DNA from: Sipunculus nudus
Lineage: Eukaryota; Annelida; Sipuncula; Golfingiida; Sipunculidae
Direction: 5' to 3'
Assembly (NCBI GenBank): GCA_026874595.1
Contig: CM049313.1
Location: 78,670,659 to 78,734,658, forward strand
DNA length: 64,000 nt
In this document: positions 7,476 to 59,052 of the stretch, in pieces
How the letters are laid out: the number at the start of each line of letters is the position of its first letter
Numbering within the stretch: the first letter of the stretch is position 1
Notes under the pieces: generated by a model
What the model saw: the letters and a program-made list of their open reading frames with translations, nothing else
The model's database searches: none
What the model was told of the DNA's origin: nothing
Made by a program: the position numbers and the translations under genes

Positions 7476-7630
7476 ATGGATGAACTGACTGCAGCACTGG
7501 CAGGCAGCTTTCAGGTCAGCTCTGACCCGGACAGCACTGCAGCTGCTCATCCCAGGTTTACCCAGTACAAGATAAAAAAACGAGTTGATCAGGAGGAGAG
7601 GAGGAGCCGCATGTTATCTTCACAGAAACA
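7476..7630 (+). CDS. SNUPN: SNUPN coding exon 1
   Basis: Encodes residues 1-51 and two bases of codon 52. It starts [12 protein letters not shown] and runs into the first part of the importin-beta-binding domain ([18 protein letters not shown]). The start is the first ATG of the conserved N-terminus and aligns with the human start. GAAG just before the ATG could be a splice acceptor for a 5' UTR intron. The exon ends CAGAAACA before the donor GTAAGT. Its last ~30 bases are the seed of the minisatellite that follows. Confidence 0.95.
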
Positions 7631-10600
7631 GTAAGTCATATAGGAGGAGGGGCATGTTATCTTCACAGAAACAGTAAGTCATATAGGAGGAGGGGCATGT
7701 TATCTTCACAGAAACAGTAAGTCATATAGGAGGAGGGGCATGTTATCTGCACAGAAACAGTAAGTCATGTAGGAGGAGGGGCATGTTATCTTCACAGAAA
7801 CAGTAAGTCATATAGGAGGAGGGGCATGTTATCTTCACAGAAACAGTAAGTCATAAAGGAGGAGGGGCATGTTATCTTCACAGAAACAGTAAGTCATATA
7901 GGAGGAGGGGCATGTTATCTTCACAGAAACAGTAAGTCATATAGGAGGAGGGGCATGTTATCTGCACAGAAACAGTAAGTCATATAGGAGGAGGGGCATG
8001 TTATCTGCACAGAAACAGTAAGTCATATAGGAGGAGGGGCATGTTATCTTCACAGAAACAGTAAGTCATATAGGAGGAGGGGCATGTTATCTTCACAGAA
8101 ACAGTAAGTCATATAGGAGGAGGGGCATGTTATCTTCACAGAAACAGTAAGTCATATAGGAGGAGGGGCATGTTATCTGCACAGAAACAGTAAGTCATAT
8201 AGGAGGAGGGGCATGTTATCTGCTCAGAAACAGTAAGTCATATAGGAGGAGGGGCATGTTATCTGCACAGAAACAGTAAGTCATATAGGAGGAGGGGCAT
8301 GTTATCTGCACAGAAACAGTAAGTCATATAGGAGGAGGGGCATGTTATCTGCACAGAAACAGTAAGTCATATAGGAGGAGGGGCATGTTATCTTCACAGA
8401 AACAGTAAGTCATATAGGAGGAGGGGCATGTTATCTGCACAGAAACAGTAAGTCATATAGGAGGAGGGGCATGTTATCTGCTCAGAAACAGTAAGTCATA
8501 TAGGAGGAGGGGCATGTTATCTGCACAGAAACAGTAAGTCTTATAGGAGGAGGGGCATGTTATCTGCACAGAAACAGTTAGTCATATAGGAGGAGGGGCA
8601 TGTTATCTGCACAGAAACAGTAAGTCTTATAGGAGGAGGGGCATGTTATCTGCACAGAAACAGTTAGTCATATAGGAGGAGGGGCATGTTATCTGCACAG
8701 AAACAGTTAGTCATATAGGAGGGGCATGTTATCTGCACAGAAACAGTAAGTCATGTAGGAGGGGCATGTTATCTGCACAGAAACATTAAGTCATATAGGA
8801 GGAGGGGCATGTTATCTTCACAGAAACAGTAAGTCATATAGGAGGGGCATGTTATCTGCACAGAAACAGTAAGTCATATAGGAGGGGCATGTTATCTTCA
8901 CAGAAACAGTAAGTCATATAGGAGGAGGGGCATGTTATCTTCACAGAAACAGTTAGTCATATAGGAGGAGGGGCATGTTATCTGCACAGAAACAGTAAGT
9001 CATATAGGAGGGGCATGTTATCTTCACAGAAACAGTAAGTCATATAGGAGGAGGGGCATGTTATCTTCACAGAAACAGTAAGTCATATAGGAGGGGCATG
9101 TTATCTGCACAGAAACAGTTAGTCATATAGGAGGAGGGGCATGTTATCTGCACAGGAACAGTAAGTCATATAGGAGGAGGGGCATGTTATCTGCACAGAA
9201 ACAGTTAGTCATATAGGAAGAGGGGCCACATGTTATCTCAGCTGAAACAGTAAGTCATAAAACAGGAGGAGCCACATGTTATCTCGGCTGAAACAATATG
9301 TCATAATGCAACAGTGTTGAACTCTTGCACTGTTGGATGGGAAAATAATCATAACAGTTGGGGTTTCCTGTAGGCCTGTACTAAGCACTTGTAGTTGTAC
9401 CCTGTACTTAAGTACTTAATTTGGTGTGCTTTTTTGTGTATGGGGACTTAAATTGTTTTCATAATAGATGCATCGCTAATAAAAAAGACACGAGTAAACA
9501 CTTTTGACAGTATATGTTAAGGTATCTTTCTTTACATTTTTTTTACAGCTGACATATTATTTTACTATAATAATACTATTCTGGTCAATTAAAAAAATTC
9601 ATTAGTATTGATATATTGCAAAACTATGCTTAAATATAGTTAATATCAGAAAGCTCTCTGATTTTGCTTTCACAAGAGTGCTAAGTAAGCTACTTGTTTT
9701 TTTTAAGTCTCACAGTATATTGTTATTAAGTACTTCTAGTCAGTAACATGCATAATAGTCCTGTTAATAGCTGTTAAGAGAATAATAAGCAAAAAAAATG
9801 AAAGAAGGATGAAACTTGGTACAACAGTTGTTCAGACCATACGTAATATTTTCAGATATGGGGCCAAGCAGAATTCGCCCAATCTTGGTCAGAATCCAAG
9901 ATGGTCACAGGACCGTAAAATATCAATACATCCAGTTATATTTGTTCTAGAATCCTTTTCAAGTGCACTGTTTCTATGTATCATTACTAGAACATAGATT
10001 GTTCAGGAATGCAGGTAGCTTGTCCTTTTACCAATGGAATTTCCCAAACGCGGTGAAAATAAGGTAGAAAATAAGGGCATTTAATTTAAACACATCATAA
10101 CACTTTTTTGCAGGGTCACTCAAGCATGAAGTTCGGGAAGATGTAAGGGCCGGTGAACCTCTGCCTGTTTATACAGATTTTATATTCCGTGCCCTATTCT
10201 TGTTTGCTACTGATTTTTCATTACATTTTGGAAAAAATATTCTGCTGATCCATTTCAAGTCACTGTATTTTAATTCTAAAAGTAACATTTTGAAATCTTA
10301 ATTTTTGAGGAAAATTCCATTTTCTAGAATTACTCGGAAGATTCAAATCATTTTCATACCGGTTACTTCGGTATTAACATCGTCACATCGTAAGTTGACA
10401 TCGCTCCATGTCACAATTTGCTGGTGCATTTGAAAACATCGCTTGTCAACTTAACTAAATATCAAAGTAACTGAAGTTACCTTGTCAAGATACGCACGTA
10501 TAGGACACATGAAGCTTGAAAATTAATGATTTTAAGGTAAAATTAAAGTGGCCAGTCGGGGTAAGCAAGTTTTTTTCCTGAAGAAAGTTTCCGTGTGGGG

Positions 10601-13600: not shown

Positions 13601-16600
13601 TTCCCATATCCTTCAAGCTATAGGACTCCTAAGTATCCCTCAGAATAATGGAAAATATGATACAAAAGCTGAAATATCTGAACAACTAATGCAGAGATCA
13701 CCATGATTCTTTGCATGTATATTGACCATTATGTGTTTTTATTAGTTTCTGCAGACTGGTGGAGCCTTCTTTTTTGTTTTTAAGTTTACTCATTTTTTCT
13801 CTATTTATGCAATATATATAAATGCAGTCACAATCTTGGCCTGTTGGTTAATCTGTTTGATGCTTCAGTTGAATGGGTATATACTACCATTCAGATGATA
13901 AAATTTCCTTTTGCGAATCTCTTCCCAGTCAGCTGAGCGTCATGACCCATGGGTCACTTGTTTAAACAGCCGCCATCTTGGATTTTGGCCAAGATTATTT
14001 ATTTTCAGCTAGGCGCCATATCTGAAATTCACCATTAAGCTCTAAAGAATACTTGCCAACTTTCATGCTTCGGACATTTTTTGCACAATTCTTCCAAATA
14101 TGGGAGCTTTACTGCTGGACTACAAGTATTTGTACACGAATTGAATCTTCTAAGCAGAGACTGAATTGTTGCCAGCATGGCCACTGATTAGGTCCAGGTT
14201 TCAGATTTTTCCTAGGTATTTTTAAGCATGTTTTTCTTCTTATTACTTCTTTCCTTTATCACAGTCACTCATATAGTGTAATGTATTTATGAACAAATTG
14301 AAATATCTAAAAAAAGTGATATGTCTTTGAACACAGGAGCCGTTTTGATTATGTTAACCTGGTTAGACAGCTTGGCACAAACACATGGGACTCGGACAGA
14401 CAAGAGGATATGGAATGGCAAGACACAGGTGGAAAACCTGGCAGACATTACAAAAACCAGGTATTGTTGATTTCTTTTACAACCCTAGACATAAGACTTT
14501 GTACAACTCTATTAAATCAAAATTAAATTTTAGAGAATCAAACCCATTAGAAGACAATCATGACAGTTCATGGGCATTCAACTAACTTCACGCACCATGA
14601 GTTTTTGAATGAAGGATTTGAAAGATGAACTTTTTTAATTAGTTTTTATCAAACCTGTGAGCTTATGTGATGGTGTGGCGTCGTCCGTCGTTTGTACGTT
14701 AACCCATACTATCATAAAAACAGCAAGAGTTAGCATCACAAATTTCATGCAAAAAATTAGTCATCTAAAAATTCTATCGTGTTTTGCTTTTTTTTTTGGC
14801 TAACTGCATTTTCTTATATTTTATAGGGAAAAAAGCTAAAAAAGCTTTAGAAATCTTCTTCTCTGAAATTGTTCAGCCAAATTGTCCAGTATTTCACAGC
14901 AATTATTCCTGGAACAATCTCTCTCAAGATTGTTCGAATGGTTTAAGTTTGGTGATTTTTGGCCGAGTTACAGGAAGTTGAACTTTAGTCATCTGTCCAA
15001 AAAAGCATACTAAAATTACAATCTCAGAACCGGCTGGAGCTATCATCACCAAATTTTATGCCAATGTCAGTCACGAGTCATATCTGAAATTGAGATATTG
15101 GTGGCGCCACCTGCATCGGCCATTTTTGTACAGGGGTCATCAAACAGCTGTACATTGATTATAAATAATTGGTATCCATACTCTACTTAATTCAAGATTT
15201 TGGCATCAGTGAGATATATCTGTATTATAGTTTTGCATTCAATATGCATCTGTAGTAAATTTTAGCAAACCTGTGAGCTAATGCAATGGTGTGGCGGCGT
15301 CTGTCATCCCTCCTCTGTACGTTAACCCACACTATCATGAAAACAACTGGAGCTAGCATCATGAAATTTAATGCAAAAAATTAGTCAACTGAAAAACTGG
15401 GTTTTCTTAGATTTTATAGAGAAAATCTAAAAAACCCTTAAAAATCTTCTCCTCCGAAATGGTCAAGCCAAACTGTTCAGTATTTCACAGAAACAATCTT
15501 TTATACCATATCTCTCAAGTTTGTTCGAATGGTTCAAGTTCAGTGAATTTATGCCAAGTTACAGGAAGTTGAACTTAGTCATCTATCCAAAAAAGCATAC
15601 TAAAATGACAATCTTAGAAACGGCCGGAGCTATTATCACCAAATTTTATGCCAGCGTTGGTCATATGATTCGTATATGAAATTCAGGTATTGGTGGTGCC
15701 ACCTGCATTGACCTTTCTTTTATGAGGGTCATTGGTCATCTGAACATTAACCCATAATTTCTCAGGAATAGCAGGAGCTACCATCCCCAAATTTTATGCA
15801 ATAATCTGTCACGTATCAAATGTTATGGGATTCAGCTTAATTTTTTGCTATCTGCATTTACTGAAAAAGCTGAAAAACCTTTTAAAGTCTTCTCCTTGTA
15901 AACTGTCCAGCCAAATTGTTCAATATTTGACAGAAATGATCCCAGAGGCAAGCCCTCTCAAGTTGGTTCAAATGGTTTGCATTTGATGAATTTTAGCAGA
16001 GTTACACAAATTTGAACTTCGTCATTTGGCCAAGTAAGCATACTGACATAGTAATCTCAGAAACGACAGAAGCTAGCATTACCAAGTATTGTGCAAATGT
16101 TGGTCACATGACTCATGTTTGAAGTTGAAGATTTTGTGGTGCCACCTACATTGACCTGTTTTTTTATGGGCAAAAACATAATAATTTTAGCCTCTTTCGG
16201 CTTAAAATGTTTATGATGAAACTGTCAAGTTGAATCATTCAATTTTCAAAAGAATTATCCTAGGACATGTTTCTTTCAATCATATCAGAATAGATTAAGT
16301 TTGTTGATTTTTGGTTGAGTCGAGAAAAGCTTAAGGTGGTCTTTTGGCTTTATTATGTCTATTTCAGACTGAGGACTGCAATAGTGTTCTTCTATAAAAT
16401 TATTGTTTCAATTATAACTTCTGTAACATTGCACAAAAATTATTCTTAGGAGGCCTTTGTTCAAGTTTACTTGAATGAGTTTTGGCAAAATTATATGACC
16501 TTTAACAATGGAAGGACTATATCTTTTATTATTCTAGATATTTTGATAAAAAGTTTATGAACATATCAGCTTGAAAAAAAAAGATTTTAGCCAAAGTCTT

Positions 16601-17980: not shown

Positions 17981-20900
17981 AATTGTAAATTTTAGTATAA
18001 CTATTTGTCCATAGGTACCTATGTACATGCCAAAAATTATGTCAATATTGTGTAATATGTAGACGTGGAGGGCATCAAAATAATGTACCTTGTCAAGACT
18101 GAAGAGATATACACCATAACATATTCATTAATCCCCTCATCAGCATAGTTGATCATAACATCAAATCTGTCAAATTGAAAGCTTGCAGACTACCATACAC
18201 TATAGATCCTTCTACAAATAGCCTTATCATCATTCTACTGCTGCTTATTACTGCTGTCATTGCATTCATATTTACTCAAATATATAATGACTTTGGCACA
18301 GTGTATGCCCCTGCTTATTTCTACAGAGGAATTTGATTAGCAGCCTGAAATTGGGCATATTTATTCATATTGAATAGCTTTTTCATATACAAGACTGGCG
18401 GTGCCACCTACAATAATTTTAGCACAGTGTGTGTCCCTGCTTATTTCTCAGGAGGGGTTTGATATATCACATTATCAGTCTGAAATTGGGTATATGTGTA
18501 TATCTCTGATATAACTTCGTTGAATACAAGACTGGTGGTGCCAGCTACAATCATTTTTGTGTTGTGTGCACCCATGAAAGAAATTTCAGCAGTGATGTTT
18601 GTGTAATTGTTTCTTTTTCAAAATGTTTAGTACAAGTTTGCATTGTTCATATACATGAAATCAAAGTAATGGTCCAGCATTGAAGCATTATACTTGGTGT
18701 ATTTCCATAGGGCACAGGTATGCATTAGGCCTGTAGGCCTTGTTAATTGATTGTTCCATTGAGTCTTGTTTTAAAACAAAATACTGCAGGTACACCACTT
18801 TAGTTGATTATTTATTTGTCTGCTTAGTTGATGCTGTCAGAATGGATGGTGGAAGTTCCTGAAGATCTACAGACCAACTGGTTGATGGTGGCTTGTCCTG
18901 TTGGCAGAAGGAACCTAGTGGTTGCTTCACAGGTAAGTTATCAGTGGTTGCAGTGTAACATCAGTTACTGGATTATTTCATCATCTTTTCAGCATCTGAA
19001 TCATGTAATTGTTATTTGTGCCACTCAAGTATGTCTAAATCTTTTTAGCTCAGCTGACTATAAGTCATCTGAGCTATAGTCGTGGTCCTTTGTCCGTCGT
19101 CCGTCCGGCTGTCCATCCGTTAACAAGGCACGTTTTTAAACCATTGGACCTAGGGATCCAAAACTTTGCATACCATTAGATGTCCCCAAAATCTCCTACC
19201 ATACAAAAAATTGGGTCATTAGGACTTTCTTCCAATGAGATATTAAGGAAAAACCTCCGTTTTCCATAAAAAAGCCATTGTTACACTTCAAGGCTGCCTA
19301 ATATCAAAACCACTAATCTGTTTTTTATCATATTCTTCCATACATTTTCTATGAACATACTAAAAATTAGGTCAGTATTGGGTATTATTTTGAAGTTATG
19401 GGCCCAAATATAATGCAATTTTTAAAAAATCAGGAAATATATTTATTCACCTAACATTAGAATTGCTGAAGCTGAAGACTTTTTTTTCAGGAATATAACT
19501 TTATTTAATATAGATTCAATTGTTTACCCAAAATTAGATCTGAATTTTGCTAATTTGTCAAGTTATTAGCATAAATAAAAAATCAATACCTTAAATTTTG
19601 TCCAACTTTGGTAATGGCACATTTTTTTGGTGTAAGCACTGTTGATTTAATTTTCACAACATATATACATAAGGATTTCATCTTTTAAAATCTGAAATTT
19701 CAAAGGAATTGATTGAAAAGAGTAGTTTTTATTCAAGTTTCCATACACCATGTCAAGTGTTGTTTACATCTAGCCCACCTGGTAGTACAGCCTTCACTTG
19801 CATTATGTAAATGACCCCAGACAGCTTGCCTTGGCTCAGCTTGGCCACTACTATCAGGCTTCCCCTCTGCCCAGCACTCCTCCCCCCCCCCCCCAGATGG
19901 TGCATTAAGTAGATGAATGTTATTATTTTCTGTATTTTATTTTATTCTTGGCTATGCTACATTTTAGATTTTGTATTGTACCATCAGGGTTACAATAATT
20001 AAAGTGCACATTGAATTGTGTCCACAAAGTGGTGTATTGGTAAGAAAGTGCGGATGTTCATCAGATAAGTAATTCCTTACTTCAGAAGAGTAAAAACTTC
20101 ACCAGGTGTGAAATTGACTATTAATTCCAGTAATAAATTATAGCTGAGATAGTAATTAGCGCAATGATATTGTTTGTCCCTCATTCAACCAACAGTGTGT
20201 ATACTTTATTTTAAAAGATGTTTTTATTTTATCAAATTTACTAAATCTTTTATTTCATTTCATTGAATAAAATTAAGCATGTACTGAAAACTCCAATGTG
20301 CAAAACTCTTTAATAGTGATTCAAGGAATAATCTTGTAGATGCCATGTTGTGGCATTATTTTCTTTTAAATTCAGTTTAAACATTTGTGATTTAAAAATA
20401 ATAAAATATATGTGTATGCATAATATGACCCAATATGAGCTACACTCTGGATATATAATGATTGCAACTTAGAATTCTAATATTTGTATCCGCCAAAACG
20501 AAGTTTTGCGGATACTATGTTTTTGACCGGGTTCCGCCGCCGCCGCCGCCGCCGCCGCGTTCGTTTCCGGAGAACTCCTCTGAGACTACTGGACAGATTT
20601 TTCCGAAACTTACACAAATTATCGGGTCACATGTGAACTGGTGCCTAACCAAGTGACCTTGACCTCTGACCTTTCGTCTCTGCCCAGCGTCCGTTTGTGC
20701 GTCTGTTTACACACATAAACCCATATATCTCGGGAACCGTTTGACCGATCCGGAAAATTTTTTTACACAAATGTAGCCCTGGGATAGCTTTATAACATAC
20801 ACAACAAAAGGTGGCGCCACCTGCAACCATGTTTGCACAGTGTCCATCTGTTCATCTGCCTGGGGTTAAAATCACTCATATCTCTGCAGTGGTTTGACTA

Positions 20901-23900
20901 ATTCACCTAAAATTTGGCATGCATATACATCCTAGATAGCTTTCTCAATTTTATGACAGGTGGCGCCACCTACATTCACGTTAACGCTCCACACATAAAC
21001 CCATATATCTCGGGAACCGTTTGACCGATCTGGAAAAAAATTTTACACAAATGTAGCCCTGGGATAGCTTTATAACATACACAACAAAAGGTGGCGCCAC
21101 CTGCAACCATGTTTGCACAGTGTCCATTTGTTCATCTGCCTGGGGTTAAAATCACTCATATCTCTGCAGTGGTTTGACTAATTCACCTAAAAATCGGCAT
21201 GCATATACATCCTAGATAGCTTTCTTGATTTTATGACAGGTGGCGCCACCTACATTCACGTTAACGCTCCACACATAAACCCATATATCTCGGGAACCGT
21301 TTGACCGATCCAGAAAAAAATTTTACACAAATGTAGCCCTGGGATAGCTTTATAACATACACAACAAAAGATGGCGCCACCTGCAACCATGTTTGCACAG
21401 TGTCCATTTGTTCATCTGCCTGGGGTTAAAATCACTCATATCTCTGCAATGGTTTGACTAATTCACCTAAAATTCGGCATGCGTATACATCCTAGATAGC
21501 TTCCTTGATTTTATGACAGGTGGCGCCACCTACATTCATGTTAACGCTGCAGACATCCAAGCTCATATCTCGGGAACCGTTTGACCGATCCGGAAAAAAA
21601 TTTTACACAAATGTAGCCCTGGGATAGCTTTATAACATACACAACAAAAGGTGGCGCCACCTGCAACCATGTTTGCACAGCTTCCATCTGTTTGTCTGCT
21701 GTGGGATAAAATCACTCATATCTCTGCAGTGGTTTGACTTTTCCACTTGAAATTTTGCATGTGTATATATCTTGGATAGTTTCTCGTTCAAATAACAGGT
21801 GGCGCCACCTACAATCATGTTTATGTGGCAGAGATCCAATACTAATATTTTACATATGTAACTCTATATCCCCTTGCCACTCAATCCATGCCTCACTTCA
21901 CCCGTCCTTCTCTGATTTTGGCGGATACACGTAGTCGCTTGTCGACTACCCGTATTCTAGTTTAACTTATATTTTCAGGTTTTTTTATTACAAACTTATA
22001 AAACTTGTAAATAAAAAAAATGAATCAGATAAAAACTATTAATGGATAGTGGATATGCTAAAAAAATAGGCTTATATAAAAACTTAAATGCATTATTCTC
22101 TTGAAAGTGAAATAAAGGTATTAGTCCATTCTGTCCACTTGCCAAATTTTTCATATGCATCACAGTATCTCAATACTATTACTGTTTTTTTTCATGATGG
22201 CAGTCTTGTCATAGTATTAGTTTGCAATCATATATTTAGAACTTTACTATAACCAAGTTGGAGGGCCCCTTTTCTCTTAGCTTCTCATATGCTTATATAA
22301 ATGAAAAATTTTACAATAGCATATTTTGCATTTGCAAAAATTTCAAACTTCAGCTGAGGGCCGTGACCCATGGGTCCCTTGTTTACACCTACAAAAGGAC
22401 ATTGAGGGTCCTCGTAAAAAATATTCATACAAATTCAACTGATGTGAATTTCTTATTTTCCCTGACTGTTGTTATATTGCAGGGAAGCACTAGGGCCTAC
22501 TCCAAGAGTGGTTACAAAGTTTTAGACTTTCACTCTGTACTCCCAGGAGGAAACAAGCAGGGTGGTAACTGGAAAAAAGGTGATTTTTTTTTTGTGATGT
22601 TACACCATACACCAATGTCTGTAGCTCACTGAAAAGTTTATGATGTAACACCTTACACACTTGTCTGTAGCTCACTTAACATTTTAAGTAAGTTGTTAGT
22701 TTAAGTGTCAGGGTGCACTGAGAACACTTGACAGCTATGCCGCCCATGAGTGTCAACTGCACCATTGTTAAGGTGGTACCTGACTACATTTGTATGGCCT
22801 GCGTATCCAGGATTCTGTAGGGAAGAACACAGGAGCTTGAGCTAAACACAGCCTTGATCACTTAACTGATCAGCCTGATCATGACATTGTCAGCAGGAGG
22901 TTAATTAAAGCTAAGGAAGCAATCACATTCAGACCAGTATTCCTCACTTGGGTCACTTGGGTTGTTTTGAAAGTAATTAATGTGTCATGTGTCTTTCCCC
23001 GGTAAAAGAATTCCCATGGCCCTTACAGTCCCAAATGCTTGCGCATATAGCTTCATTGACCAACTGACAATGGTATCAAAAGATACCAACAAGAGGAGTG
23101 GTCATGCATGTTGCTATTGGCATATTATAAGTTCTCTTGGGTTACAAGCCATGTTAAAGGTATATATGAAGTATTTTAAAATAGAAAGCAATCAATAAGA
23201 ACAAACTTAATGTTATCCTATTGAATATCCCATTGAAAGTGCAACCAACACTGTTCATTGACTTAAATTCCTTTGTTATCACTCAGTACTCAACATACTG
23301 GCTGTCTTAAGGCCTTCCAAGTAATGTTCAGTGCAGCAGAAAATAGTTGTGTATAAATAAAAGTCTTGAGTCTTTATATCATTATTTTTAGTTCACTCTG
23401 TGAACTTATGCCATGGCGCAGCGTCCGCCGTCCACTGTCCACTGTCCACCGTCCACCGTCTGTTACTAAATATCTCAACAGTCACAGCAGCTACCTTCAT
23501 GAAACTTTGGAGAATTAATAATCATGGGATGGACATGCAAAAATAAGCTTTTGGTGGCGCCACCTATGTTGACCTACTTTCTGCGGGACGAAATGGTCTT
23601 TTCCACTTCTTCCAAGATAAGTCATAAAGTATTAATATTTTGGCCTTCATATCATAGTCAACAGTTCCTTAGAAGAAGGGGAATAATTTGTGTGTAAATT
23701 CAGTCAGGTCATTTTCAAGATGGCGTCTCTATGGAACTTCAAATCGTGTCCATCCCAAAATATGACAACTTGATGTGTTTCCATACAGGATGTATTGTCT
23801 GTTACTAAATATCTGAGGAACTGCTGCAGCCTTCAGTTTCAAATTTCACAGGAATATTGATCATGTGACTGCTCAATGATTTTTACCTCCAGGTGGCGCC

Positions 23901-26900: not shown

Positions 26901-29900
26901 TACATCCTGGACAATTTTCTCGATTTTATGACAGGTGGCGCCACCTACATTCACGTTTACCCCTCAGACATCCATGCTGATATGCAACACACCTCACTCT
27001 ATTCCCTGTGCCACTTTATCCATGCCTCACTTCACCCGTCCCACTCTGATTTCTGCTGATACACATAGTCGCTTGTTGACTACCAATATTCTAGTTTTAA
27101 AATGTCCTAGTCTGAAACTTGCAGGTCCGAAACGTCCATTTTGCCGAAATCATAAAGACTAAGGTAGATATGCAGGACGTAATAGGATCAATATTAAATT
27201 TAAAAAATAAACCTCCATTCATAACTTTGCACAGGTTCGCATTAGGCCTGTAGGCCTTGTTTCTAATTTTTACGCGTTTTTTCTGTTTTTGAGACCTTCA
27301 GATGAAGCAGTCCATCCGTTACAGGACACAAATTATAACAGTAAAGACCTAGAAACTTCTAACTGTACATCAATGGAGGTCATAAGCAAATCTCCTTGGA
27401 ACATTGATGTAAGTCATGGTGACCTATATTTTGGGAAATACAGGCTGAAAACATGATTTTGAGCACCCTGTCGCACTGGTCATAAATTGCATCTGCCAGG
27501 CCTAAAAAATCTGCATTGAAACCTTAAATTAGATCATGGTGTCTATGATGGTGACATATTTTGTACCAAGGGCCAAAAACCTTATTTTTAGCGCCCTGAA
27601 AATCAATTGGGCAATATTTGTATCTTCTAACCCTAGAATGTTCCCATGAAATATTCAGGGAAGTCTTGTGCAATCTCCATTGACACCTGAAATTAGTTCA
27701 TGGTGATCAGTATTTTGCATGCTACCGACAAAAAATTTGAATAATATCCATGGAAACCTGAGATTAGGTCATAGTTACCTATATTACTGGCCAAAAATAT
27801 TTTAAGCTCCCAGACAGTCAGTCAGGGTACAAAACTTTACTGTTTGACCTAGAATCTTCTGTCTTGACATTTAAAAAATTTGCATGGTTATTTTTACCTT
27901 GATTGACTGCATACAAAAAGGTTAGATTTCATGGGAATGGCTGGACATATTATCATAAAACTTCTTGTCGATTTTGATGAACTTCAATAGCAACAGTTGA
28001 ATGAGGATACCACCTAGACCAAATTTGTCATTCAGATGATAAAATTCCTTTTGTGAATATCGTCCTAACTGCTGAGCGTCATCACCCATGGGTCACTTGT
28101 TATTATTTTTCATTAGTTTGCACCGCTGTGAGTTCCATCACGTGTAGATAATGTTTTGTCATTTGTTTGAAGCTGAGACCATCCTGGACTGCATGTACTA
28201 TGAGCCCAGTAGGACATTCTATGTACTTGATATCATGTGCTGGAAGGGCAACCCAGTGTATGAAAGTGATGTAAGCATTTTTATTATTTGTTTGTTTAAT
28301 TATTAAATGTCTGAAAAATTATGTGGTTAACTAACATGACTACACTGATGTCAATTATAAGTTTTAACTTACAAGATTCAGGAGTTACCGGTAGACCTAC
28401 AAATCCAAAATTCAGCATACTGTAAGATTTCCCCAAGATCTCCTACCAAACTGAAAACGGGTCACTGCAACTTCGTTCCTTAGAGAAATTAAGGAGAAAC
28501 CTCAATTTTCCATTAAAAACCTATTATTATACTGAAGGATTGCCATATATCAAAACCACTTGTGTTTTTCTTCATACTTACTATAAATATTCCCCTATGT
28601 AGTTCCTATGTACATGCCAAAAAATTGAGTCAGTGTTACGTAATTTTTAAAAGTTATGAGCCCAAACATTATGCACTTTGTAAAAAAATCAGGAAATATA
28701 TACACTCACTGAACATCAGAATGGTTAAAGCTAGAGACTTTTATTCAGGGATATGACTTTATTTAATCAGTTGTATTCAGTTGTATACCCTAAATTAAAA
28801 AAATTTTTATAAGTGATGCAACACTGGTTGAGCACCCCTGCTGTTGCGGGTATACAGTTGTCACCTCCCCCTCCCCCCCCCCACCAAATGTATTGTAATA
28901 ATTGTTATTGTTTGAACTGTATTTCATTAATCGTAAAGCTTTTTCATCTCCGATGTACAAAACTTTTCTTGAAATATTTATTAAAGGAGGATTCCAAAAG
29001 ATGAAGTAATGAAGCATTTTTAAAGAAATTAATTTCCTTTTAAATATTAAAGTGATTTGAAATATAATTTTACCATTCATGAGACATACTTTGATAAAAT
29101 ATGAGCCAAATCATGGATAGACAAAGGTCCAATTTAGAATTGTTAATTCTAAATCAAGTGTCATTTTTAGATATCTGTTGTTTAACAAATTTAAAAAATA
29201 TAGTTTATAAAAAAAAAAATAAAAAATACATCTGGGTACATAATTTGATATAACCTGACCAAATAACCTATTAATTTTGTTGCAATTTAGAATTGTGAAC
29301 CAAGTTAAATATTCAGATATATGATATACTGTTAATGTAAAGTAAAATTTATAAACTTTAAAAAATATTGATGTAATTAAAAAAAAGGATCCAATGCAAA
29401 CATTTGTTTATTATTTTCTTGCCTCAGTAGAATGGGATTTTAAAGTGATTTGCTTTGTTCTTCCATCTCTCTGCCTGTTTAAAAATATTTAGTATTAAAC
29501 TTTTTATTCCAGTTAGCACTGTTGAATTAAATTTCATATCCTGTATGTATATGCAAGGGTGTTGTAACTTGCACCATTCCATTTTCATTAATTAGAATGG
29601 AAGCTATGGCCACAAAACAAAGACATTTTCACTCCATTTACGTGTAAATGTGTAAAGTTTGCAATCCGCATTTTGGAAACTTTTGTAGCAACAGCAATGA
29701 AATAAATACAGGGACACCATTGATTTTCTATTTTTCTAAAACTTGGGGTTAGCAGGATGGAAAAAACAAACAAATTTATAAGTCTGGTCTAATTTTGAGT
29801 GGCAAAACATATAGAGTAATACTTTGTTGTGTCAGTATTGGTTAAACTGTATACCCTTTTTGTGTGAAGATTGAGCAAACTTTTTTTTAATTATTACATT

Positions 29901-32569
29901 TTAAACATGCTTTAGACAGGCCTATCAGATGCCACCAGCTCTGACACACCAAGGTTTTCCTGTATATAAGTAAGTATAAAGAGTCAAAAAGCAGTGCTTA
30001 TTTACTTTTTCAGGGACAGTTGATGGGATGAATTCATGTCACATGATCTGTTTCTCTTTTTTTTTCTTCAGACAGAGTTCAGGTTTTATTGGATGCAAAC
30101 AAAATTAGCAGAGATTCCTGAACTTGCAACATATGCACCTACAAATCCAGTAAGTATTTTTAGCTCAGATGACTATAAGTCATCTGAGCTATAGTTGCGG
30201 TCCATTGTCCGTCGTCCGTCCGTCTGTCTGTCGTGCCGGCCGGCCGTCCATCCGTCTGTCTGGATGTCCGTCCGTAAGACTGGCACATTTTGACACCATT
30301 GGACCTACGTCTCTGAAATTCCCCATACAGTTAGATGTCCCCAAAATCTCCTACCATGCCGAAAATTGGGTCAATAGGACTTCGTTCCTTTGAGATATTA
30401 AGGAAAAACCTCAATTTTTTATTAGAAATCTATTTTCACACTTCAGGACTGCCTAATATCAAAACCACTGATCTAGTTTTCTTCATATTTACCATAAATA
30501 TTCCTCTATATAGTTCCTATGTACATGCCAGAAATTAAGTCAGTATTATTAAATTCAAAAAAGTTATGGGCCCAAACATAATGGACTTTGTAAAAAAATC
30601 AGGAAAGATATTTGGTCACTTAAGACCAAAAGTGTTGAAGGTAGGGACTTTTTCTCAGTAATACAATTTTAATTGATCAAAATTTAATTGTATACCAAAA
30701 ATTAGATAAAAAATCTGTTAAATTTTTTTAAATATTAGCAAAAATATAAAATTGGTACCTTAAATTTTGCCCAAGTTTGACCATGGCACGTTTTTTTTCC
30801 TGCATGTACTGTGGATTTAATTTTCACAGCATGTTTTCGTTAGCATTTTGTCTGTTAACACCAAAAATTTGAAACCAGTTGATCAAAAACTGTAAATTTT
30901 ATTCAAGTTTTCAAGCACCATGTCACAACAAGTTTACATCAAGCTAGTGTTATGCAGTTTGCTAGAGCTCAGCTCCCCAGCTTCAGCTCTAAAGTTCCTT
31001 AAATTTAGCATACAGTTAGATGTCTCCAAAATCCCCTATCATGCCAAGAATTTGATCACTAGGACTTAATTCCTTCGAGATATTAATGAAAAACTTCATT
31101 TTTCCATTAAAAACCCATTGTTACACTGTAAGACTGCCTAATATCAAAACCACTGATCTGACTTTGATCATATATAATATACATATTTTTCTATACATTT
31201 GATATGCACATGCCAGAAATGATGTCAGTATTGCGTAATTGTTTTAAGGTATGGGCCCAAACATAATGCACTTTTTAAAAAATCAAGAAATATATTTATA
31301 ACCTTAACAAGAGGATTGCTGAAGCTAGAGATTTTTTGTCAGGGATGTAACATTATTTAATCAAGATTCAATTGAATACCAAAAATTAGTTCTGAATTTT
31401 TCAATTTTTATAAGTTATTAGTATAAATATAAAATTAGTACCATAAATTTTGCCCAACTTTGACCATGGCACATTTGTTTCCTGAGAGCACTATTGATAT
31501 AATTTTCATATCATGCACACATAAGGATTTCATCTTTGTAGTTTAGAAAGCTGAAATAAATTGGCCAAATATTGTAGCTTTTACTAATGTTTATATGAGA
31601 CCATGTCAGACCCAGGCTTAATCCAGCCCCTCTTCAGTCACCTGTATGTTGACCTTTCATCAAATTATGCATGCTTGATGCGAGGCATACACTGGGGAAG
31701 CCAGGCAGCTTATGGCCAGCCACAGTTGATCCAGGTGTCCAACCCAACTCATCTAGTAGTTGTTTTGAAAAACAACTTAACAATAAACAATAAATTAATA
31801 AGTTTGTATTGGTTTTTTATAACAAATTAAAGAAAAATTCATAGAAAAGGAATTTGTTAGTTGATGAGTAACAGAAAATTAACTTGCAGTTACTGATGAT
31901 GTAGGAATCTTGTATGGATGGATAGAATGTCAATGTCAATGTTATTCCAAATAACACCATGCAGTCACCTATGGTATTTTTCAGTGAAATTTTAATGATA
32001 AAAGAAAATCATATTATTCATTACTAATCATTAGGGATCATATGAAGGAAATTAATGATAGACAAAGATGCAGTTGATAATATTAATCTAGATTCTTACT
32101 GTGTCTAGTGTGTAGATTGATGTGAAAGTAGTCCAAAGTGAATATATTACATTTATTTTTTTTTAATATAAATAAAGCCATAAAATCAGGTACTTATGAT
32201 CATTTTTTAAATTTGTGAATTTTGTATATTCTGGATTCTCAACATCTTTGTTTGGCTAAAACTGAATAAATACTAGACATGGTGCGAATGCTTTGCAAAT
32301 GTATTTGAATACAAATATGAATATGTACTGCATTAAAAAATTTTATTGCATAAGAATGGGAATTCAGGTAAAAATTAAAGTATTTGAATACAAGTGCAGA
32401 TACTTTCAAAATGTATTCATGAATGCATTCATGAATATATTCTATAATATTATTTCAGTAATCATTTCAGTTATATTATATTTTAAAAAATCAAATGATT
32501 TTCTTATTATTTTTAGCTCAGCTGACTATAAGTCATCTGAGCTATAGTCATGGTCCATTGCCCATCGTC

Positions 32570-35600: not shown

Positions 35601-38600
35601 TTGGCCTGCCCACATGTTTTAAATAATTTAATCTTGTAAAATTTGTGAAAAATACTAATGCAGCTTTGTTGTATTTCAGTACACATTCATTCCACTGCAG
35701 AACCACAGCTGTGAGAGTGACAGTATTAAGAGAGTGTTAGAATCAAGTGTAGGTGGAGGATACAGTGTGGAGGTAAGAACTTGGGCTGTGACTTAGCCGC
35801 GGATTGGCCATGGACCTTTCCTGTAAAAAAAAACATAGCTGTGATCGTGAAAGTATAAAAGAGTGTATGAAGGATGTACAAGAGGACGATACAGTGTGGA
35901 GGTGAAATGACAACTTTGATACTGAAGATACTGAGTTAACTAAGATGGATTTTAAACTTGTTATGTTTAAATTATGATTCTCTAAGTCCCTATGACAAAA
36001 TTGTTTTTTATGCCCCCGCCACAAAGTGGCCGGGGCATATAGTTTTACCCATGTCCGTCCTTCCGTCATTCCGAAATCAAACAGTTGTACGGTCTTTTTT
36101 TCACAATGCCTGCAGATATTGGCCTGATTTTTGGTGTGTGGCAGATAATGACCAGTTACAGATCCAGTTCGCGTTTTGTCCCGGTTGACCTATTTTTGAC
36201 CGTTTTACGGCTCCTTAACTTAGAAAATTTCATGAAAAATAGAAATTTTCATGACAAATACACATGTACGAGCTTTTTGGCGCAATGCTTGCAGATATTG
36301 GTCTGATTTTTGGTGTGTATGCAGATTTTGACCAGTTACACGATCGAGTTTACGTTTTGTCCCAGTTGACCAACTTTTGACCATTTTACGGCTCCTTAAC
36401 TTAGAAAATTTCATGAAAAATAGTAATTTTCATGACAAATACACATGTACGAGCTTTTTTGCACAATGCTTGCAGATATTGGTCTGATTTTTGGTGTGTA
36501 TGCAGATATTGACCAGTCACACGATCGAGTTTGCGTTATGTCCCAGTTGACCTACTTTTGACCATTTTACGGCTCCTTAACTTAGAAAATTTCATGAAAA
36601 ATAGAAATTTTCATGACAAATACACAGGTAAGAGCTTTTTTGCGCAATGCCTGCAGATATTGGCCTGATTTTTGTTGTGTATGCAGATATTGACTAGTTA
36701 CAGATTGAGTTCTCGTTTCGTCCCAGTTGACCTACTTTGACCGTTTTATGGCTCCTAAACATAGAAAGTTTCATGAAAAATAGAAATTTTCATAACAAAT
36801 GCATATGTACAGACTTTTTATCCGCAATGCCTGCAGATAAAGCCCTGATTTTTTATCTGTGGGCAGATAATGACCAGTTACAGAACGAGTTCGCGTTTCG
36901 TCCCGGTTGACCTACTTTTGATTGTTTTACAGCTCTTAAACATAGAAAATTTCATGAAAAATTTAAATTTCATGACAAATGTACATGTACAGCTGTTTTA
37001 GCCCTCAGCTCATAGGCTGATGGGCTATTGTCGTCACCCAAGCTGTCCGTTTATCTGTCCGTCCATTTGTCTGTCCGGTGTCCGTCCGTTCCGCGTCTGT
37101 TTACTTTTACCTTGTGAGCGGGATTTCTCTAAAAGGATTAACCGTTGGAATTTTATTTAATCAGTGAAGATGTATATCAATAAAATCTCGGTCACGTTCG
37201 AAGATGGGTGACCTTGACCCATTTTTCTACATGTTAGAGCTGATTATAGAAAAACACTCAGAAGCTTATATCTCAGGAACCATTGTGTGGATTTTCACAA
37301 AACTTACTATGATCATTGGGACTGATGGTCTGTATGTGCTGCACAATTTTGGTGGTGCCACTTGCAATTTCTGATTTTTTAATGAAATTTATCGGATTTT
37401 TAAATTTTGGCCTTTTGTGCAGGATATCTACAAAGGTATTCAACATAGGAACTTCATTACTTCAGTGCTTTTGCATCATATTTACAAAATCTTGGTCAAG
37501 TTCAAAGATGGGTGGTCTTGACCTTCTTTTCAAGGTCACAGAGCTTAGTATAGAAAAAAACTTAGGAGCTTATTTCTCAGGAAGCATTTGGTGATACCTC
37601 TGGTACATACCTCTCCAATTTAAATTTAAAACTGATTATCAGCTTTTGCTAATTTTCTAGTTTCGCAATGCAATGCTTACAGATACTGGCCCAATGTTTG
37701 GTCTGTGGCGCATAATGACCACTTTCAGATCGAGTTCGCGTTTCTTCCCAGTTAACCTATTTTTGACCATTGACAGATCCTGAACATAGAAAATTTCATG
37801 TAAGACAGAAATTTTTATGAAAAATGCACATGTATGGACTTTTTATCACAATGCCTGCAAATACTGGCCTAATTTTTGGTGTGTTGCTTGATAATGACCT
37901 GTTACAGATCGAGTTTGCATTTTGCCCTTGTTGACCTACTTTTGACCATACACCTCCTGAACTTAAAAAATTTTACAAAATTTAACAAACGTTTCTTATT
38001 TGCCCCAGGCGGGGGCATTCGTGTCGTTCCGACACATCTAGTCTTATGATTAATTCTGTCGCATGTTCTTGTGATTGTTGCCTTGATCATTTTCAGGCCC
38101 TAGCCACAAGAGCATGCTTTATGCATGAATGCAGCCTATGCAGCTAAATTCTCTAAGATTGATTCGTTTAAACATTCAGGTATTGATAAATATGTTTCAT
38201 TGCAGGTTGATGGCTTGCTGTTTTATCACAAAGAAACTAACTACACATTTGGTAGCACCCCACTGGTGACTTGGCTCAAGCCTTACATGCTTCCTGAAAT
38301 TCTTGGTGTGCCTGTACCTGAACATTACATGAAACAGAAACCTTCATCGTACAAAGACTTCTCTACACACTCCCAAATGGTCAAGAAAAATCAGGAAGAA
38401 GCTAGCAAAAGAAAAGAGCAGCAGAGCAGTCCAGGACAAAAGAAGGTGCTGCAGAGACCAAAAAAGGAAGGAGGTGGAGAAAAAATGGAGGTGCCCCAAG
38501 AACACACAACACAAAAGGGGAGACGGAGATCCAAAGGCAAAAAACAAAATAAAGAAGCAATGGACACAACACAGGCACATGTTAAGGAAAATACACCGAA

Positions 38601-38604
38601 ATAG
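7476..38604 (+). CDS. SNUPN: snurportin-1, complete gene of eight coding exons
   Basis: Snurportin-1 is the nuclear import adaptor for spliceosomal U snRNPs: it binds the trimethylguanosine cap, recruits importin-beta, and is recycled by exportin-1. Joining 7476-7630, 14337-14460, 18828-18932, 22483-22579, 28173-28270, 30072-30149, 35680-35772 and 38206-38604 gives 1,149 nt, 382 residues plus stop. All introns are GT-AG with compatible phases. The importin-beta-binding region lies at about residues 25-75 ([27 protein letters not shown]). The cap-binding domain follows from about residue 94 ([45 protein letters not shown]). Trp99 and Trp273 appear to match the cap-contacting tryptophans of the human protein. 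The tail after about residue 290 is lysine-rich and longer than in the 360-residue human protein. The identification is strong; a 5' non-coding exon may exist upstream. Confidence 0.96.
7631..9303 (+). repeat. 43-bp minisatellite made from the exon 1 splice donor
   Basis: About 37 regular units plus two diverged units at the 3' edge. A unit runs GTAAGTCATATAGGAGGAGG, GGCATGTTATCT, then (T/G)CACAGAAACA. Forty-base variants lacking one GGA appear mainly after 8700. The second half of each unit matches the last bases of exon 1 (ATGTTATCTTCACAGAAACA), and the first half is the intron start, so each unit regenerates an exon-intron boundary. Roughly six units have GTTAGT in place of GTAAGT. The distal edge units read GGAGGAGCCACATG, closer to exon 1 (GGAGGAGCCGCATG), as expected if the array edge preserves older sequence. 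Confidence 0.97.
9304..12367. other. intron 1, mostly unclassified
   Basis: AT-rich to about 10,300, then a more balanced stretch (10,300-11,950) with more CpG and an unidentified open frame at 11339-11701. The dinucleotide shift could mean an old coding insertion, but no splice-compatible exon of the snurportin gene lies here, because exons 1 and 2 join in phase without it. Confidence 0.4.
11339..11701 (+). other. unidentified 120-residue open frame inside intron 1
   Basis: A Ser/Pro-rich open frame beginning [18 protein letters not shown], with one CxxC pair near residues 16-19. It stops at 11701, and similar-composition sequence continues, broken by stops, to about 11990, where AATAAA words occur. 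The higher GC content and Ser/Pro bias differ from the surrounding intron, which suggests a decayed retrocopy or transposon protein. I do not recognise the family and assign no function. Confidence 0.25.
12371..13960 (+). mobile_element. Helentron-like element, family A (copy 2), intact ends
   Basis: AGCTCAGCTGAC at 12373-12384 forms a 5' hairpin with GTCATCTGAGCT. The 3' end has GTCAGCTGAGC (13928-13938), the exact inverse of the 5' word, then the perfect palindrome TGACCCATGGGTCA (13943-13956) and CTTG before TT. Inside are four tandem ~330-bp modules starting at about 12485, 12830, 13160 and 13490, each ending near a CTGGTGGCGCCACCT-type box. No protein gene is present. Confidence 0.75.
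13961..14336. other. end of intron 1
   Basis: No gene or repeat end recognised. The last bases, TCTTTGAACACAG, form the acceptor used for exon 2. Confidence 0.4.
14337..14460 (+). CDS. SNUPN: SNUPN coding exon 2
   Basis: Encodes residues 52-93. It begins by completing a Gln codon, then [13 protein letters not shown], the second half of the importin-beta-binding domain (human counterpart KRLDYVNHARRL). The acceptor is ACACAG and the donor is CAG followed by GTATTG. The acidic linker after it ([10 protein letters not shown]) is shorter than in human snurportin. The exon ends in phase 0. Confidence 0.93.
16762..16871 (+). repeat. 22-bp tandem repeat, five copies
   Basis: Five units of the form CATGTGATCACCTCATGNGT follow without gaps, each containing CATGTG and usually TGATCA. 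They lie inside the family E elements of intron 2. Confidence 0.8.
16900..17240 (+). repeat. short diverged tandem repeats
   Basis: Repeated phrases TATAGCTTTGGCAGACTGCC, AACTGTATCAGA and AGAGTTCACTCAGTGCAG recur several times with small changes. This is internal structure of the family E elements and not a gene. Confidence 0.55.
17932..17977. repeat. (TA)n microsatellite
   Basis: About 22 uninterrupted TA dinucleotides within intron 2. Confidence 0.95.
17990..18290 (+). mobile_element. fragment shared with family A2 3' regions
   Basis: Closely matches 44055-44345, including the phrases GTACCTATGTACATGCC, GTAATATGTAGACGTG and CCTCATCAGCATAGTT. In the 44 kb copy this segment lies between the endonuclease remnant and the element's 3' end, so this is a dispersed piece of the same element type. 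Confidence 0.6.
18828..18932 (+). CDS. SNUPN: SNUPN coding exon 3
   Basis: Encodes residues 94-128, starting [14 protein letters not shown], then [15 protein letters not shown]. This is the start of the trimethylguanosine cap-binding domain; Ser97 and Trp99 (LSEW) correspond to conserved cap-pocket residues of the human protein. The acceptor is TCTGCTTAG and the donor is CAG before GTAAGT. It is phase 0 at both ends. Confidence 0.95.
19044..22381 (+). mobile_element. Helentron-like element, family A2 (copy 3), hosting a B element
   Basis: Starts ~110 bases after the exon 3 donor with TTTTTAGCTCAGCTGACTAT and its hairpin partner, then GTCCGTCGTCCGTCC. It ends CAGCTGAGGGCCGTGACCCA-TGGGTCC-CTTG, about 100 bases before exon 4. 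The A2 type is marked by GGACCTA...ATTAGATGTCCCC and GAGATATTAAGGAAAAACC. It is interrupted at 20486-21960 by a family B element. A poly-C run lies at 19882-19894. Confidence 0.75.
20486..21960 (+). mobile_element. Helentron-like element, family B, intact
   Basis: The 5' end GTATCCGCCAAAAC-GAA-GTTTTGCGGATAC is a near-perfect hairpin (20486-20515), followed by a CCG-repeat run. The 13-base inverse TTTTGGCGGATAC lies at 21916-21928, then hairpin GTAGTCG-CTTGT-CGACTAC (21931-21949) and the terminus CCGTATTCTAG. Internal ~270-bp units (about four) each carry GGTGGCGCCACC boxes. The related copy at 52581-54498 lacks this insertion at 54007-54013, which fixes the borders to within two T residues and allows a TT duplication at most. 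Confidence 0.85.
22483..22579 (+). CDS. SNUPN: SNUPN coding exon 4
   Basis: Encodes residues 129-160 plus one base of codon 161. The sequence [13 protein letters not shown], then [13 protein letters not shown], matches the human GSTSAYTKSGY...LLPGGN segment of the cap-binding domain. The acceptor is TTATATTGCAG and the donor is G before GTGATT, slightly weaker than the other donors. It ends in phase 1, compatible with exon 5. Confidence 0.94.
22580..23387. other. intron 4, first part
   Basis: No repeat end or coding exon recognised. ACACCATACACCAATGTCTGTAGCTCACT-like sequence occurs twice in tandem near 22600-22680. An open frame at 22980-23198 has no recognisable content. Confidence 0.35.
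23389..25123 (+). mobile_element. Helentron-like element, family A4, intact ends
   Basis: The 5' end is TTTTTAGTTCACTCTGTGAA; GTTCACTCTGTGAA (23391-23404) returns inverted as TTCACAGAGTGAAC at 25089-25102. The 3' hairpin GACCCCTGGGTC (25107-25118) is followed by TCTTG and TT. Four to five tandem ~335-bp modules fill the interior, each with ATTTCACAGGAATATTGATC, a GGTGGCGCCACC box (23553, 23892 and 24572 exact) and TGTTGACCTACTTTC. No protein gene. Confidence 0.8.
26196..26258. repeat. cluster of GTCTAGAC palindromes
   Basis: GTCTAGAC occurs at 26196-26203, twice back to back at 26209-26224, twice back to back at 26230-26245, and as GTCTAGAT at 26251-26258. Spacing is 5 bases between groups. 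The cluster sits just upstream of the nested family B copy. Confidence 0.9.
26335..27094 (+). mobile_element. family B element, 5'-truncated, nested in family E
   Basis: Begins without the GTATCCGCC hairpin, near TCAGGTCACATGTGAACTG, and ends with ATAGTCG-CTTGT-TGACTAC, CAATATT, CTAG at 27091-27094 followed by TT. It has exact GGTGGCGCCACC boxes at 26530, 26793 and 26934. The outer family E sequence resumes afterwards. Confidence 0.7.
28173..28270 (+). CDS. SNUPN: SNUPN coding exon 5
   Basis: Encodes residues 161-193. [20 protein letters not shown], then [13 protein letters not shown], matches the human [31 protein letters not shown] region of the cap-binding domain. The acceptor is TTTGTTTGAAG and the donor is GAT before GTAAGC. 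It completes codon 161 and ends in phase 0. Confidence 0.95.
28376..29590 (+). mobile_element. family A2 fragment in intron 5
   Basis: Lacks the AGCTCAGCTGAC head but follows A2 copies from GACCTACAAATCCAAAATTC through ACTTCGTTCCTT...GAGAAATTAAGGAG, TATCAAAACCACT, a poly-C run (28873-28882), and on to TTTCATATCCTGTATGTATA. No 3' palindrome is seen. It is a truncated copy. Confidence 0.55.
30072..30149 (+). CDS. SNUPN: SNUPN coding exon 6
   Basis: Encodes residues 194-219, [20 protein letters not shown] then YAPTNP, matching human TDFRFYWMHSKLPE. The acceptor follows a long T tract ending TTCTTCAG, and the donor is CCA before GTAAGT. It is phase 0 at both ends. A transposable element starts about 7-12 bases past this donor. 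Confidence 0.95.
30162..32516 (+). repeat. 2.35-kb direct repeat, first copy
   Basis: Extends from the AGCTCAG hairpin to GATTTTCTTATTATTTTT, where the second copy starts. Landmarks shared with copy two at an offset of ~2,330-2,350 bases include GCTCCCCAGCTTCAGCTCTA, CATGTCAGACCCAGGCTTAA and GACATGGTG(C/T)GAATGC. Confidence 0.85.
32517..34855 (+). repeat. 2.35-kb direct repeat, second copy
   Basis: Repeats the first copy with few differences and then runs on past GATTTTCTTATTATTTTT into sequence absent from copy one, down to the common 3' end at 35169. The high similarity implies a fairly recent duplication. Confidence 0.85.
35170..35679 (+). mobile_element. two short family-A-type 3' fragments before exon 7
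   Basis: Two worn 3' ends follow each other: CAGCAGATCGTCGAGATCCA-TGGGTCC-CTAG near 35313-35341, and CAGCGGAGCACTGTAATCCA-TTGGTCC-CTTG near 35506-35535. The first is preceded by an AGGTCA-type module (35225-35285). The final ~140 bases are ordinary intron ending TTGTATTTCAG. Confidence 0.45.
35680..35772 (+). CDS. SNUPN: SNUPN coding exon 7
   Basis: Encodes residues 220-250: [20 protein letters not shown] then [11 protein letters not shown]. It matches the position of the human segment ([20 protein letters not shown]...) that precedes the VDGLLFYHK block. The acceptor is GTATTTCAG and the donor is GAG before GTAAGA. A worn duplicate of the exon's 3' part and donor lies at about 35835-35905 (CATAGCTGTGATCGTGAAAG, GAGGACGATACAGTGTGGAG), so this boundary too has been locally duplicated. 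Confidence 0.92.
36009..38041 (+). mobile_element. Helentron-like element, family D, intact ends
   Basis: The 5' end ATGCCCCCGCCAC-AAA-GTGGCCGGGGCAT forms a hairpin. ATGCCCCCGCC (36010-36020) returns inverted as GGCGGGGGCAT at 38008-38018, followed by hairpin GTGTCG-TTC-CGACAC (38021-38035) and ATCTAG before T. The interior is a ~180-bp unit repeated about seven times, starting near 36103, 36283, 36462, 36643, 36823, 37673 and 37848 (GCAATGC(C/T)TGCAGATATTGG). A family G element interrupts it at 36998-37660. Confidence 0.8.
36998..37660 (+). mobile_element. family G element nested in family D
   Basis: Starts with TTTTAGCCCTCAGCTCATAG-GCTGATGGGCT (hairpin), then GTCCGTTTATCTGTCCGTCC, and ends AATTTTCTAG at 37660. 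Removing it restores a normal family D unit (CATGTACAGCTGTTT joined to TCGCAATGC), so the borders are well supported. A GGTGGTGCCACTTG box, a variant of GGTGGCGCCACC, lies inside. Confidence 0.65.
38206..38604 (+). CDS. SNUPN: SNUPN coding exon 8 with stop codon
   Basis: Encodes residues 251-382 and TAG. It opens [38 protein letters not shown], close to human [28 protein letters not shown]. Trp273 corresponds to the human tryptophan that stacks on the cap base. The remaining ~90 residues are a charged Lys/Gln/Glu-rich tail without a recognisable domain, longer than in human. The acceptor is TTTCATTGCAG. The 81 open bases upstream of it (38125-38205) are intron, since human homology and splice phase both start at Val251. 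Confidence 0.95.
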
Positions 38605-58080: not shown

Positions 58081-58980
58081 TCAACCTTTTGTGTGAAAGT
58101 GCCCATCTGTCATGTATTCTCTTGTTGTATTGGTGCAAGTATCTTGTACACTTAGCTTCAGTGAAAATACTTCGTCAGTCTGCGTTTCTTGGGTTTTTGT
58201 GGTAATTGCTTTTGGCATACTTAGTTCGGTTTCCATTTGTTCTAGAGTGACCTGGGGGGTTGGTGGTTGTATGTTTCTCTTGAAGGACTGGTAGGCTGTA
58301 CATCCACGGAATGAGCTGTGGTTTCTGTGACAGTTAGCACATGGTCTAACAGACGCAGAACATTGCTTCGCTGTATGCACTGTGCTACCGCATCTATAAC
58401 ACCGGGGGTGGCTTTTGCATTGACATGAAGTGTGGCCCCAACCAAGGCATCTGCCACAGAAGGGGTGTTGTACTGAGATGTAAGCTTAGGTCTTGTAACA
58501 TCTATAGCTGACTTGTATACCAGACTGGATGGCTGTATCGGCGGCGTCCTTGTCCTTGACTCTATGAATAGGTGACTTGGTAGCGGCGCTCCGGAGTCAC
58601 ACTATTTCTGTTACTGGTAGAGTCTCTTGCATTAGCTGACAGAGTTCCTGTGTATCTATGTCCGGGTGAACTCCCTTCATCACTACAGGGTACTCAATTG
58701 GCTTGGCTGGTTTGTGTCTACGTCTAGGTTGTCTATGTGTTGTTGGTATGACACGGCACACCATCTTGAAACATGGCACAGCTTTCCATTCTGTTAAGTC
58801 TCTCAGATGAGGTCCATGCTGGGCTTGTGTTGTATACAAGTACAATCTGTCCCTCGACTCGAGGGCTTTCACAAAGGTGATATCCAGAAAGGTTGTGCGT
58901 AGTGCCTTGTAAAGGCGTACTTGGTCTGCTAACAAGTCAGGGGGAACCCCCTCGACAAAGTATCTTACTGCTGGCGACAT
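58081..58980 (-). pseudogene. LINE ORF1-type nucleic-acid-binding protein, inactivated
   Basis: A 300-codon frame from ATG at 58980 (MSPAVRYFVEGVPPDLL) to TGA at 58083-58081. It has a basic middle (RQPRRRHKPAKPIEYP) and three zinc-knuckle-like clusters at about residues 173-227: CGRCLGWGHTSC, CYRCGSTVHTAKQC and CANCHRNHSSFRGC, then FKRN. This order, basic region then CCHC knuckles, is typical of ORF1 (gag-like) proteins of I/Jockey-type LINEs, which coat the element RNA. Two in-frame stops break it: TGA at codon 128 (58597-58599) and TAA at codon 165 (58486-58488). The 72 bases upstream up to the insertion border would be its 5' UTR. Confidence 0.7.
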
Positions 58981-59052
58981 GGCAACAAGCGAAGTGTGAT
59001 TGCACGCTGAGCTGTCTAGAACACGTCTAGTCACTACGGACGTTAACTCACG

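Follow-up and report, generated by a model that had tools for sequence, protein, structure and literature searches.

How might a gene go on being spliced at its own donor when that donor has been copied, many times over, into the intron that follows it? The question is raised by a minisatellite in the 64,000-nucleotide stretch of Sipunculus nudus DNA analysed here (the window; all positions are counted from its first letter). At 7599-9305 on the forward strand, 40 copies of the junction between exon 1 and intron 1 of SNUPN stand head to tail. Studies of how one donor is picked out from several equal ones have mostly used constructs with few sites. The SNUPN locus is a natural experiment, in which 32 donors, identical over nine bases, belong to a gene found at one place in the genome, and it has a built-in readout in that protein would come from the first donor only. 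Exon definition, cap proximity, G-run context and U1 occupancy could be separated here at one locus.

The sequence comparisons identify the gene that carries the array as SNUPN (snurportin-1), the assignment already made in a first-pass annotation of this DNA. The product of exon 1 matches snurportin-1 in the PDB (1.6e-11). In the joined exons 1-6, Pfam recognizes the importin-beta-binding family Snurportin1 (PF11538; 5.3e-13, 49.3 bits, cut-off 22.1) and the m3G-cap-binding family SPN1_m3Gcap_bd (PF21974; 3.6e-54, positions 1-125 of 179), with both scores well over their cut-offs. Joining the donor at 7631 to exon 2 at 14337 keeps the frame and yields ...QKQSRFDYVN, which is co-linear with what we take to be the human counterpart, QKSKRLDYVN. 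The located part of the reading frame comprises six exons and a last one (Table 1); about 25 residues ahead of the last exon were not found. Exons 1-4 match the 1.43-Gb assembly at this locus only (four matches, E <= 0.001). No retrocopy of SNUPN, in which the splice junction in use would be preserved, was seen among the best candidates; all four of these exon 1-4 matches are the locus itself. The single genomic location, together with the Pfam scores, indicates that a functional-looking gene carries the array. With exons 1-4 found once in the assembly and a product that is plainly a snurportin, choice of the first donor is probably good enough.

Table 1. Positions of the SNUPN exons, the donor minisatellite and its parts in the window
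Feature	Position	Strand	Evidence and remarks
SNUPN first coding exon, 155 nt, ends in phase 2	7476..7630	+	PDB snurportin-1 match, Pfam Snurportin1; encodes 51 residues plus CA
SNUPN exon 2	14337..14460	+	Acceptor ...GAACACAG ends at 14336; tblastn with human SNUPN; frame check
SNUPN exon 3, donor CAG/GTAAGT	18828..18932	+	tblastn, frame check
SNUPN exon 4	22483..22579	+	tblastn, frame check
SNUPN exon 5, acceptor edge approximate	28174..28270	+	tblastn, frame check
SNUPN exon 6	30072..30149	+	tblastn, frame check
SNUPN last exon found, start approximate	38200..38604	+	tblastn, frame check, open reading frames
Minisatellite, 40 copies, unit 43 bp (some 40 or 46)	7599..9305	+	Tandem Repeats Finder, anchored count, copy table; 3' edge approximate (match edge)
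True donor GTAAGT (copy 1)	7631..7636	+	In-frame join to 14337 gives ...SSQKQSRFDYVN
37 distal GT donors, copies 2-27 and 29-39	7674..9255	+	31 GTAAGT (nine bases as in the true site), 6 GTTAGT
Copies 39 and 40, diverged relics at the 3' end, with CAGCTG/CGGCTG and GCCACATG	9213..9305	+	Copy 40 without GT; 74-79% identical to array copies

The array itself was delimited in two ways. Tandem Repeats Finder reports it at 7599-9259 with a period of 43, 39.0 copies and 95% matches, and anchoring on ATGTTATCT (first anchor at 7611, last at 9276) gives 40 copies, where the first-pass annotation had counted about 38 decoy donors. The 39 spacings between copies are mostly 43 bp (31), with six of 40 bp and two of 46 bp, the latter both at the 3' end. 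The copy table bears out a 43-bp unit drawn from the exon 1/intron 1 junction and corrects its make-up: 32 bases are exonic (7599-7630) rather than the roughly 20 first supposed, and 11 are intronic. GT is kept in 38 of the 40 copies, being absent from copies 28 and 40. As had been claimed, most copies (32/40) have the GTAAGT of the true site, namely the true donor at 7631 and 31 distal ones; a further six (copies 23, 25, 26, 32, 36 and 38) have GTTAGT. The nine-base donor ACA/GTAAGT is common to all 32 GTAAGT copies, the true donor included, and these score alike, with a simple matrix score of 2.9 and a U1 pairing energy of -5.6 kcal/mol, compared with -1.1 and -1.9 for the six GTTAGT donors. 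Elsewhere in the window, GTAAGT has a frequency of 0.26/kb on the + strand, against 32 in the 1.7 kb of the array, so the array donors are not a product of chance.

An acceptor-like word had also been ascribed to every unit. TTATCTTCACAG is present in only 16 of the first 38 copies, and the remaining 22 have TTATCTGC. Beside the acceptor-like CACAG words the pyrimidine share, by a crude measure, is 0.41 for copies 2-38, compared with 0.53 for the other three (1, 39 and 40); in another framing, likewise crude and uninformative on CACAG use, it is 0.47-0.59 in copies 1-3 and 0.47 at the true acceptor.

By sequence comparison, the source of the array is the stretch of about 43 bp over the SNUPN exon 1/intron 1 junction, with the exon first and the array copied from it. 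The end of the exon within copy 1 aligns with human snurportin (13 residues, QSERRRRLLELQK; common residues ERR-R-L--QK), and since these residues of copy 1 are common to the human protein, the array was copied from the exon and not the reverse. The exonic part of copy 1 differs from the commonest copy solely in a change of CC to GG, and copies 2-38 have GGGG in place of the GCCG of the exon. We infer that a tandem duplication of about 43 bp at the junction was followed by minisatellite growth inside intron 1. From ATGTTATCT on, 29 bases of copy 1 are identical to 14 other, intronic copies (within 7654-9214), a sign either of recent growth or of homogenisation extending into the coding exon. 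Because the coding copy equals these intronic ones over 29 bases, conversion between the array (7654-9214) and the exon (7476-7630) could alter the importin-beta-binding region of the protein. Growth in blocks was not apparent among copies 2-38, where the likeness of adjacent copies does not clearly exceed that under shuffling (share of shuffles 0.079). A search of the 1.43-Gb assembly with the array returned 38 matches, all within the array (the search skips very common words), and a search with the 3' relic region returned 30, itself and 29 in the array. With the matches to both confined to the array, a mobile or dispersed repeat as its source is not supported.

The origin of such an array is less surprising than it may seem. 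Minisatellites with units of 20-100 bp and at least 20 copies occur in four of twenty 10-kb stretches chosen by set position (5, 20, 40 and 60 Mb along each of chromosomes C1-C5), a small sample. Extrapolated from four per 200 kb, the genome would hold about 28,500 of them (95% interval about 7,800-73,000), and about 40-370 arrays would be expected to lie over a donor if seeds are random and 170,000 donors are assumed. Among the 16 sampled rows with a period of 10-100 and five or more copies, none shows GTAAGT in the consensus of either strand. Since minisatellites are common in the sampled stretches, the birth of a donor-spanning array is, on this small sample, expected in this genome rather than freakish. 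The interest lies instead in the survival of a donor array in a gene found once, and a minisatellite can evidently occupy a splice junction without evident gene loss.

In silico joins to 14337 show what use of a distal donor would bring. All 37 distal donors lead to the TAA at 7632-7634 and a stop after 52 residues, close to the truncation at about 52 first proposed, and among the 38 GT donors only donor 1 permits reading past residue 52. This TAA lies in copy 1 and is in frame whenever the first donor is skipped. The first-pass annotation had correctly noted about six GTTAGT units and had supposed that they remove the stop; they give no frame rescue, because every distal donor includes the stop of copy 1. 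The stop precedes the new junction by 39 to 1615 nt and more junctions follow, so nonsense-mediated decay (NMD) of distal-donor RNAs is expected. In the 52-residue product the match to the importin-beta-binding family is only partly retained (positions 1-29 of 40). Any distal leakage would give this one product and should enter NMD. As every leak would meet the same stop and be bound for NMD, the array would cost at most a share of SNUPN expression.

We think it likely that the first donor at 7631 is still mostly used, with the 37 other GT donors removed along with the intron, and that exon definition or choice of the 5'-most site, together with G-run context, probably secures this choice. The first donor would close a short exon, whereas distal ones would lengthen that exon by 43 to about 1,620 nt, and either exon definition or 5'-most choice would favour copy 1. 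The sites had been described as equal, and as nine-base motifs they are; in context they differ. In all 38 of copies 2-39 the 45 nt ahead of the donor position contain GGGG, and TAGG lies upstream in 37 of the 38 (the exception is copy 7); both are absent from copy 1. GGG runs number zero in exon 1 and the preceding 276 nt and 38 in 7631-9318, and copy 1 is the sole array donor with every nearby G-run on the helpful side. In the available parts of two articles, G-runs are enhancers when downstream of a donor and silencers when in the exon, and hnRNP F/H bind such runs (PMC12062376, PMC8150589). The polarity of copy 1 against copies 2-39 fits this published rule. The GGGG in the would-be exon of each distal donor would silence that donor, with hnRNP F/H as the putative agent, and the first donor, with G-runs downstream only, would be helped. 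A UAGG/GGGG splicing code is cited in the available part of PMC3390395, and the GGGG and TAGG upstream of copies 2-39 are like it as sequence motifs. As far as that text goes, the code regulates single donors or exons, whereas in SNUPN the motif separates one donor from its own copies.

The G-run contrast should not be overweighted, on two counts. The distal copies probably all descend from one GGGG-bearing unit, so that 38/38 would represent one evolutionary event, not 38. Nor is a GGG-free stretch of 431 nt rare here: the GGG density of intron 1 beyond the array (27 runs in 5018 nt) gives it a probability of about one in ten. Exon definition probably also helps.

Donor strength alone has no power to mark the true site, since between 7300 and 14336 the array is flanked by seven other GT sites with a matrix score of at least 2.9 or no more than 0.05 short of it, including one at 7515, within exon 1. 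Upstream of the 155 coding bases of exon 1 there are ten candidate acceptor-like words, among them those ending at 7361 and 7474. Against predominant use of the first donor, classic work with duplicated donors often finds the intron-proximal site preferred, a preference that would make this gene fail. Folding predictions gave copy 1 no clear advantage, with an accessibility of 0.40 against 0.04-0.49 in the other 39 copies and low values in several among copies 22-27 and 36-40; concealment of the distal donors by RNA folding is thus not indicated by any clear difference in favour of copy 1. Recursive splicing was rejected, as it calls for AG/GT and all 38 GT donors read CA/GT. Rfam returned no match at gathering score in the window.

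The closest known system is a human one. Turri, Cuin and Porter (1995) reportedly described an IFI6 minisatellite that supplies several donor sites, to judge from the title. In the available part of PMC4526556, two downstream repeat units of human IFI6 (G1P3, 6-16) act as donors, and three mRNAs encoding isoforms result. The SNUPN minisatellite likewise supplies several donors beside the true one, and on sequence evidence it resembles the IFI6 type in origin, as a repeat seeded by an exon-donor junction with the donor kept (GT in 38/40 copies, GTAAGT in 32/40). The two differ in unit, which is 12 bp long and frame-keeping in IFI6 but 43 bp long in SNUPN, and in outcome. The IFI6 isoforms are coding in that same text, whereas the SNUPN distal products, predicted from DNA alone, would all be dead ends at 52 residues (37/37). 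A second donor minisatellite besides IFI6 was not recognised in the literature searched, a scope outside which most subscription papers fell. In unit size and copy number the array is also like the intronic VNTRs of hTERT, with units of 36-61 bp and 40-44 copies in one case (PMC2915984, available part); a donor of the adjoining exon is not reported for the hTERT units in that part of the article, whereas the SNUPN units have one.

The IFI6 comparison bears directly on a different reading, in which distal donors are often used and their mRNAs tolerated, as a neutral supply of numerous long 5' exons like a noisy IFI6. We consider this unlikely. It is consistent with the nine-base identity between the true donor and 31 of its 37 distal counterparts and with the use of two downstream units in IFI6; however, the IFI6 products stay coding in the available part of PMC4526556 while all those of SNUPN stop at 52 residues, and SNUPN, found once, must still yield protein. 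A role apart from splicing also seems improbable, namely that the array, close to the start of the gene and not itself spliced at, serves as a landing platform for U1 that guards the 31-kb transcript from early polyadenylation or raises transcription. A density of 32 GTAAGT sites in 1.7 kb would suit such a platform, as would the distribution of AATAAA/ATTAAA words, with six in intron 1 past the array and none inside it, although six such words per 5 kb of AT-rich DNA is in our judgement ordinary.

The array is known from one assembly, and it could be an assembly error or private to the sequenced individual; to this we give little credence. The variants are scattered and distinct (15 sequences among copies 2-40) and the 3' relics have diverged, unlike the result of simple read-stacking. 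The window is without any N, and the sampled chromosomes measure 93-111 Mb, as in long-read assemblies. At 1.7 kb, the array is also shorter than the usual long read, which counts against an error.

A poison switch, in which nuclear U1 snRNP sets distal use and the truncating splice closes a negative feedback on SNUPN, is very unlikely in our estimate. In its favour, all 37 distal donors would lead to the same unproductive product, with 31 equal U1 sites the choice of donor would respond to U1 occupancy, and snurportin imports U snRNPs (available parts of PMC8150589 and PMC11292911). Minisatellites are nonetheless common in the sampled genome, so that a function is unneeded as an explanation, and donor decay is seen in the six GTTAGT copies and the two that have lost GT. 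The more elaborate proposal of a graded U1-snRNP sensor, in which 31 identical decoys (37 with GTTAGT) vie with the true donor, all decoys truncate the snRNP importer and a decoy-only exonic GGGG sets the first-donor default, strikes us as far-fetched, although if true it would let array length tune SNUPN output.

Several other features of the window and assembly were noted. Downstream of SNUPN, on the same strand, lies the first coding part of LSM6 (MSRKQTPSDFLKQIIGRPVVVKLNSGVDYRG, 63232-63324; PDB LSm6, 1.2e-14), a short piece for which Pfam returned no match; with it, two genes of snRNP biology stand side by side. Other tandem arrays, with units of 180-340 bp, lie in or before SNUPN introns at 4664-5577, 12554-13766, 20710-21821, 23553-24965 and 36086-36999. 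Units of like period and look were seen by eye in three sampled stretches (L103, L107 and L111), and these arrays may belong to dispersed satellite-bearing elements. Retroelement-like reading frames at 50266-50676 (+) and 58081-59082 (-) are, by eye only, endonuclease-like and zinc-knuckle-like.

A COX1 search of the assembly gave 11 matches, one of them short and with a stop on chromosome C5 and ten on small bacterial-looking contigs (C60, C61, C62, C66, C72, C74, C75, C89 and C123). The ten COX1-family genes comprise nine of near-equal length (577-578 aa, two of them on C89) and one of 489 aa. The C60 protein, the one so compared, is at most 59% identical to the prokaryote genomes used, and the gene on C123 (112 kb) is by eye a bacterial cbb3-type oxidase. 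The small contigs are perhaps several strains of an associated or contaminating bacterium.
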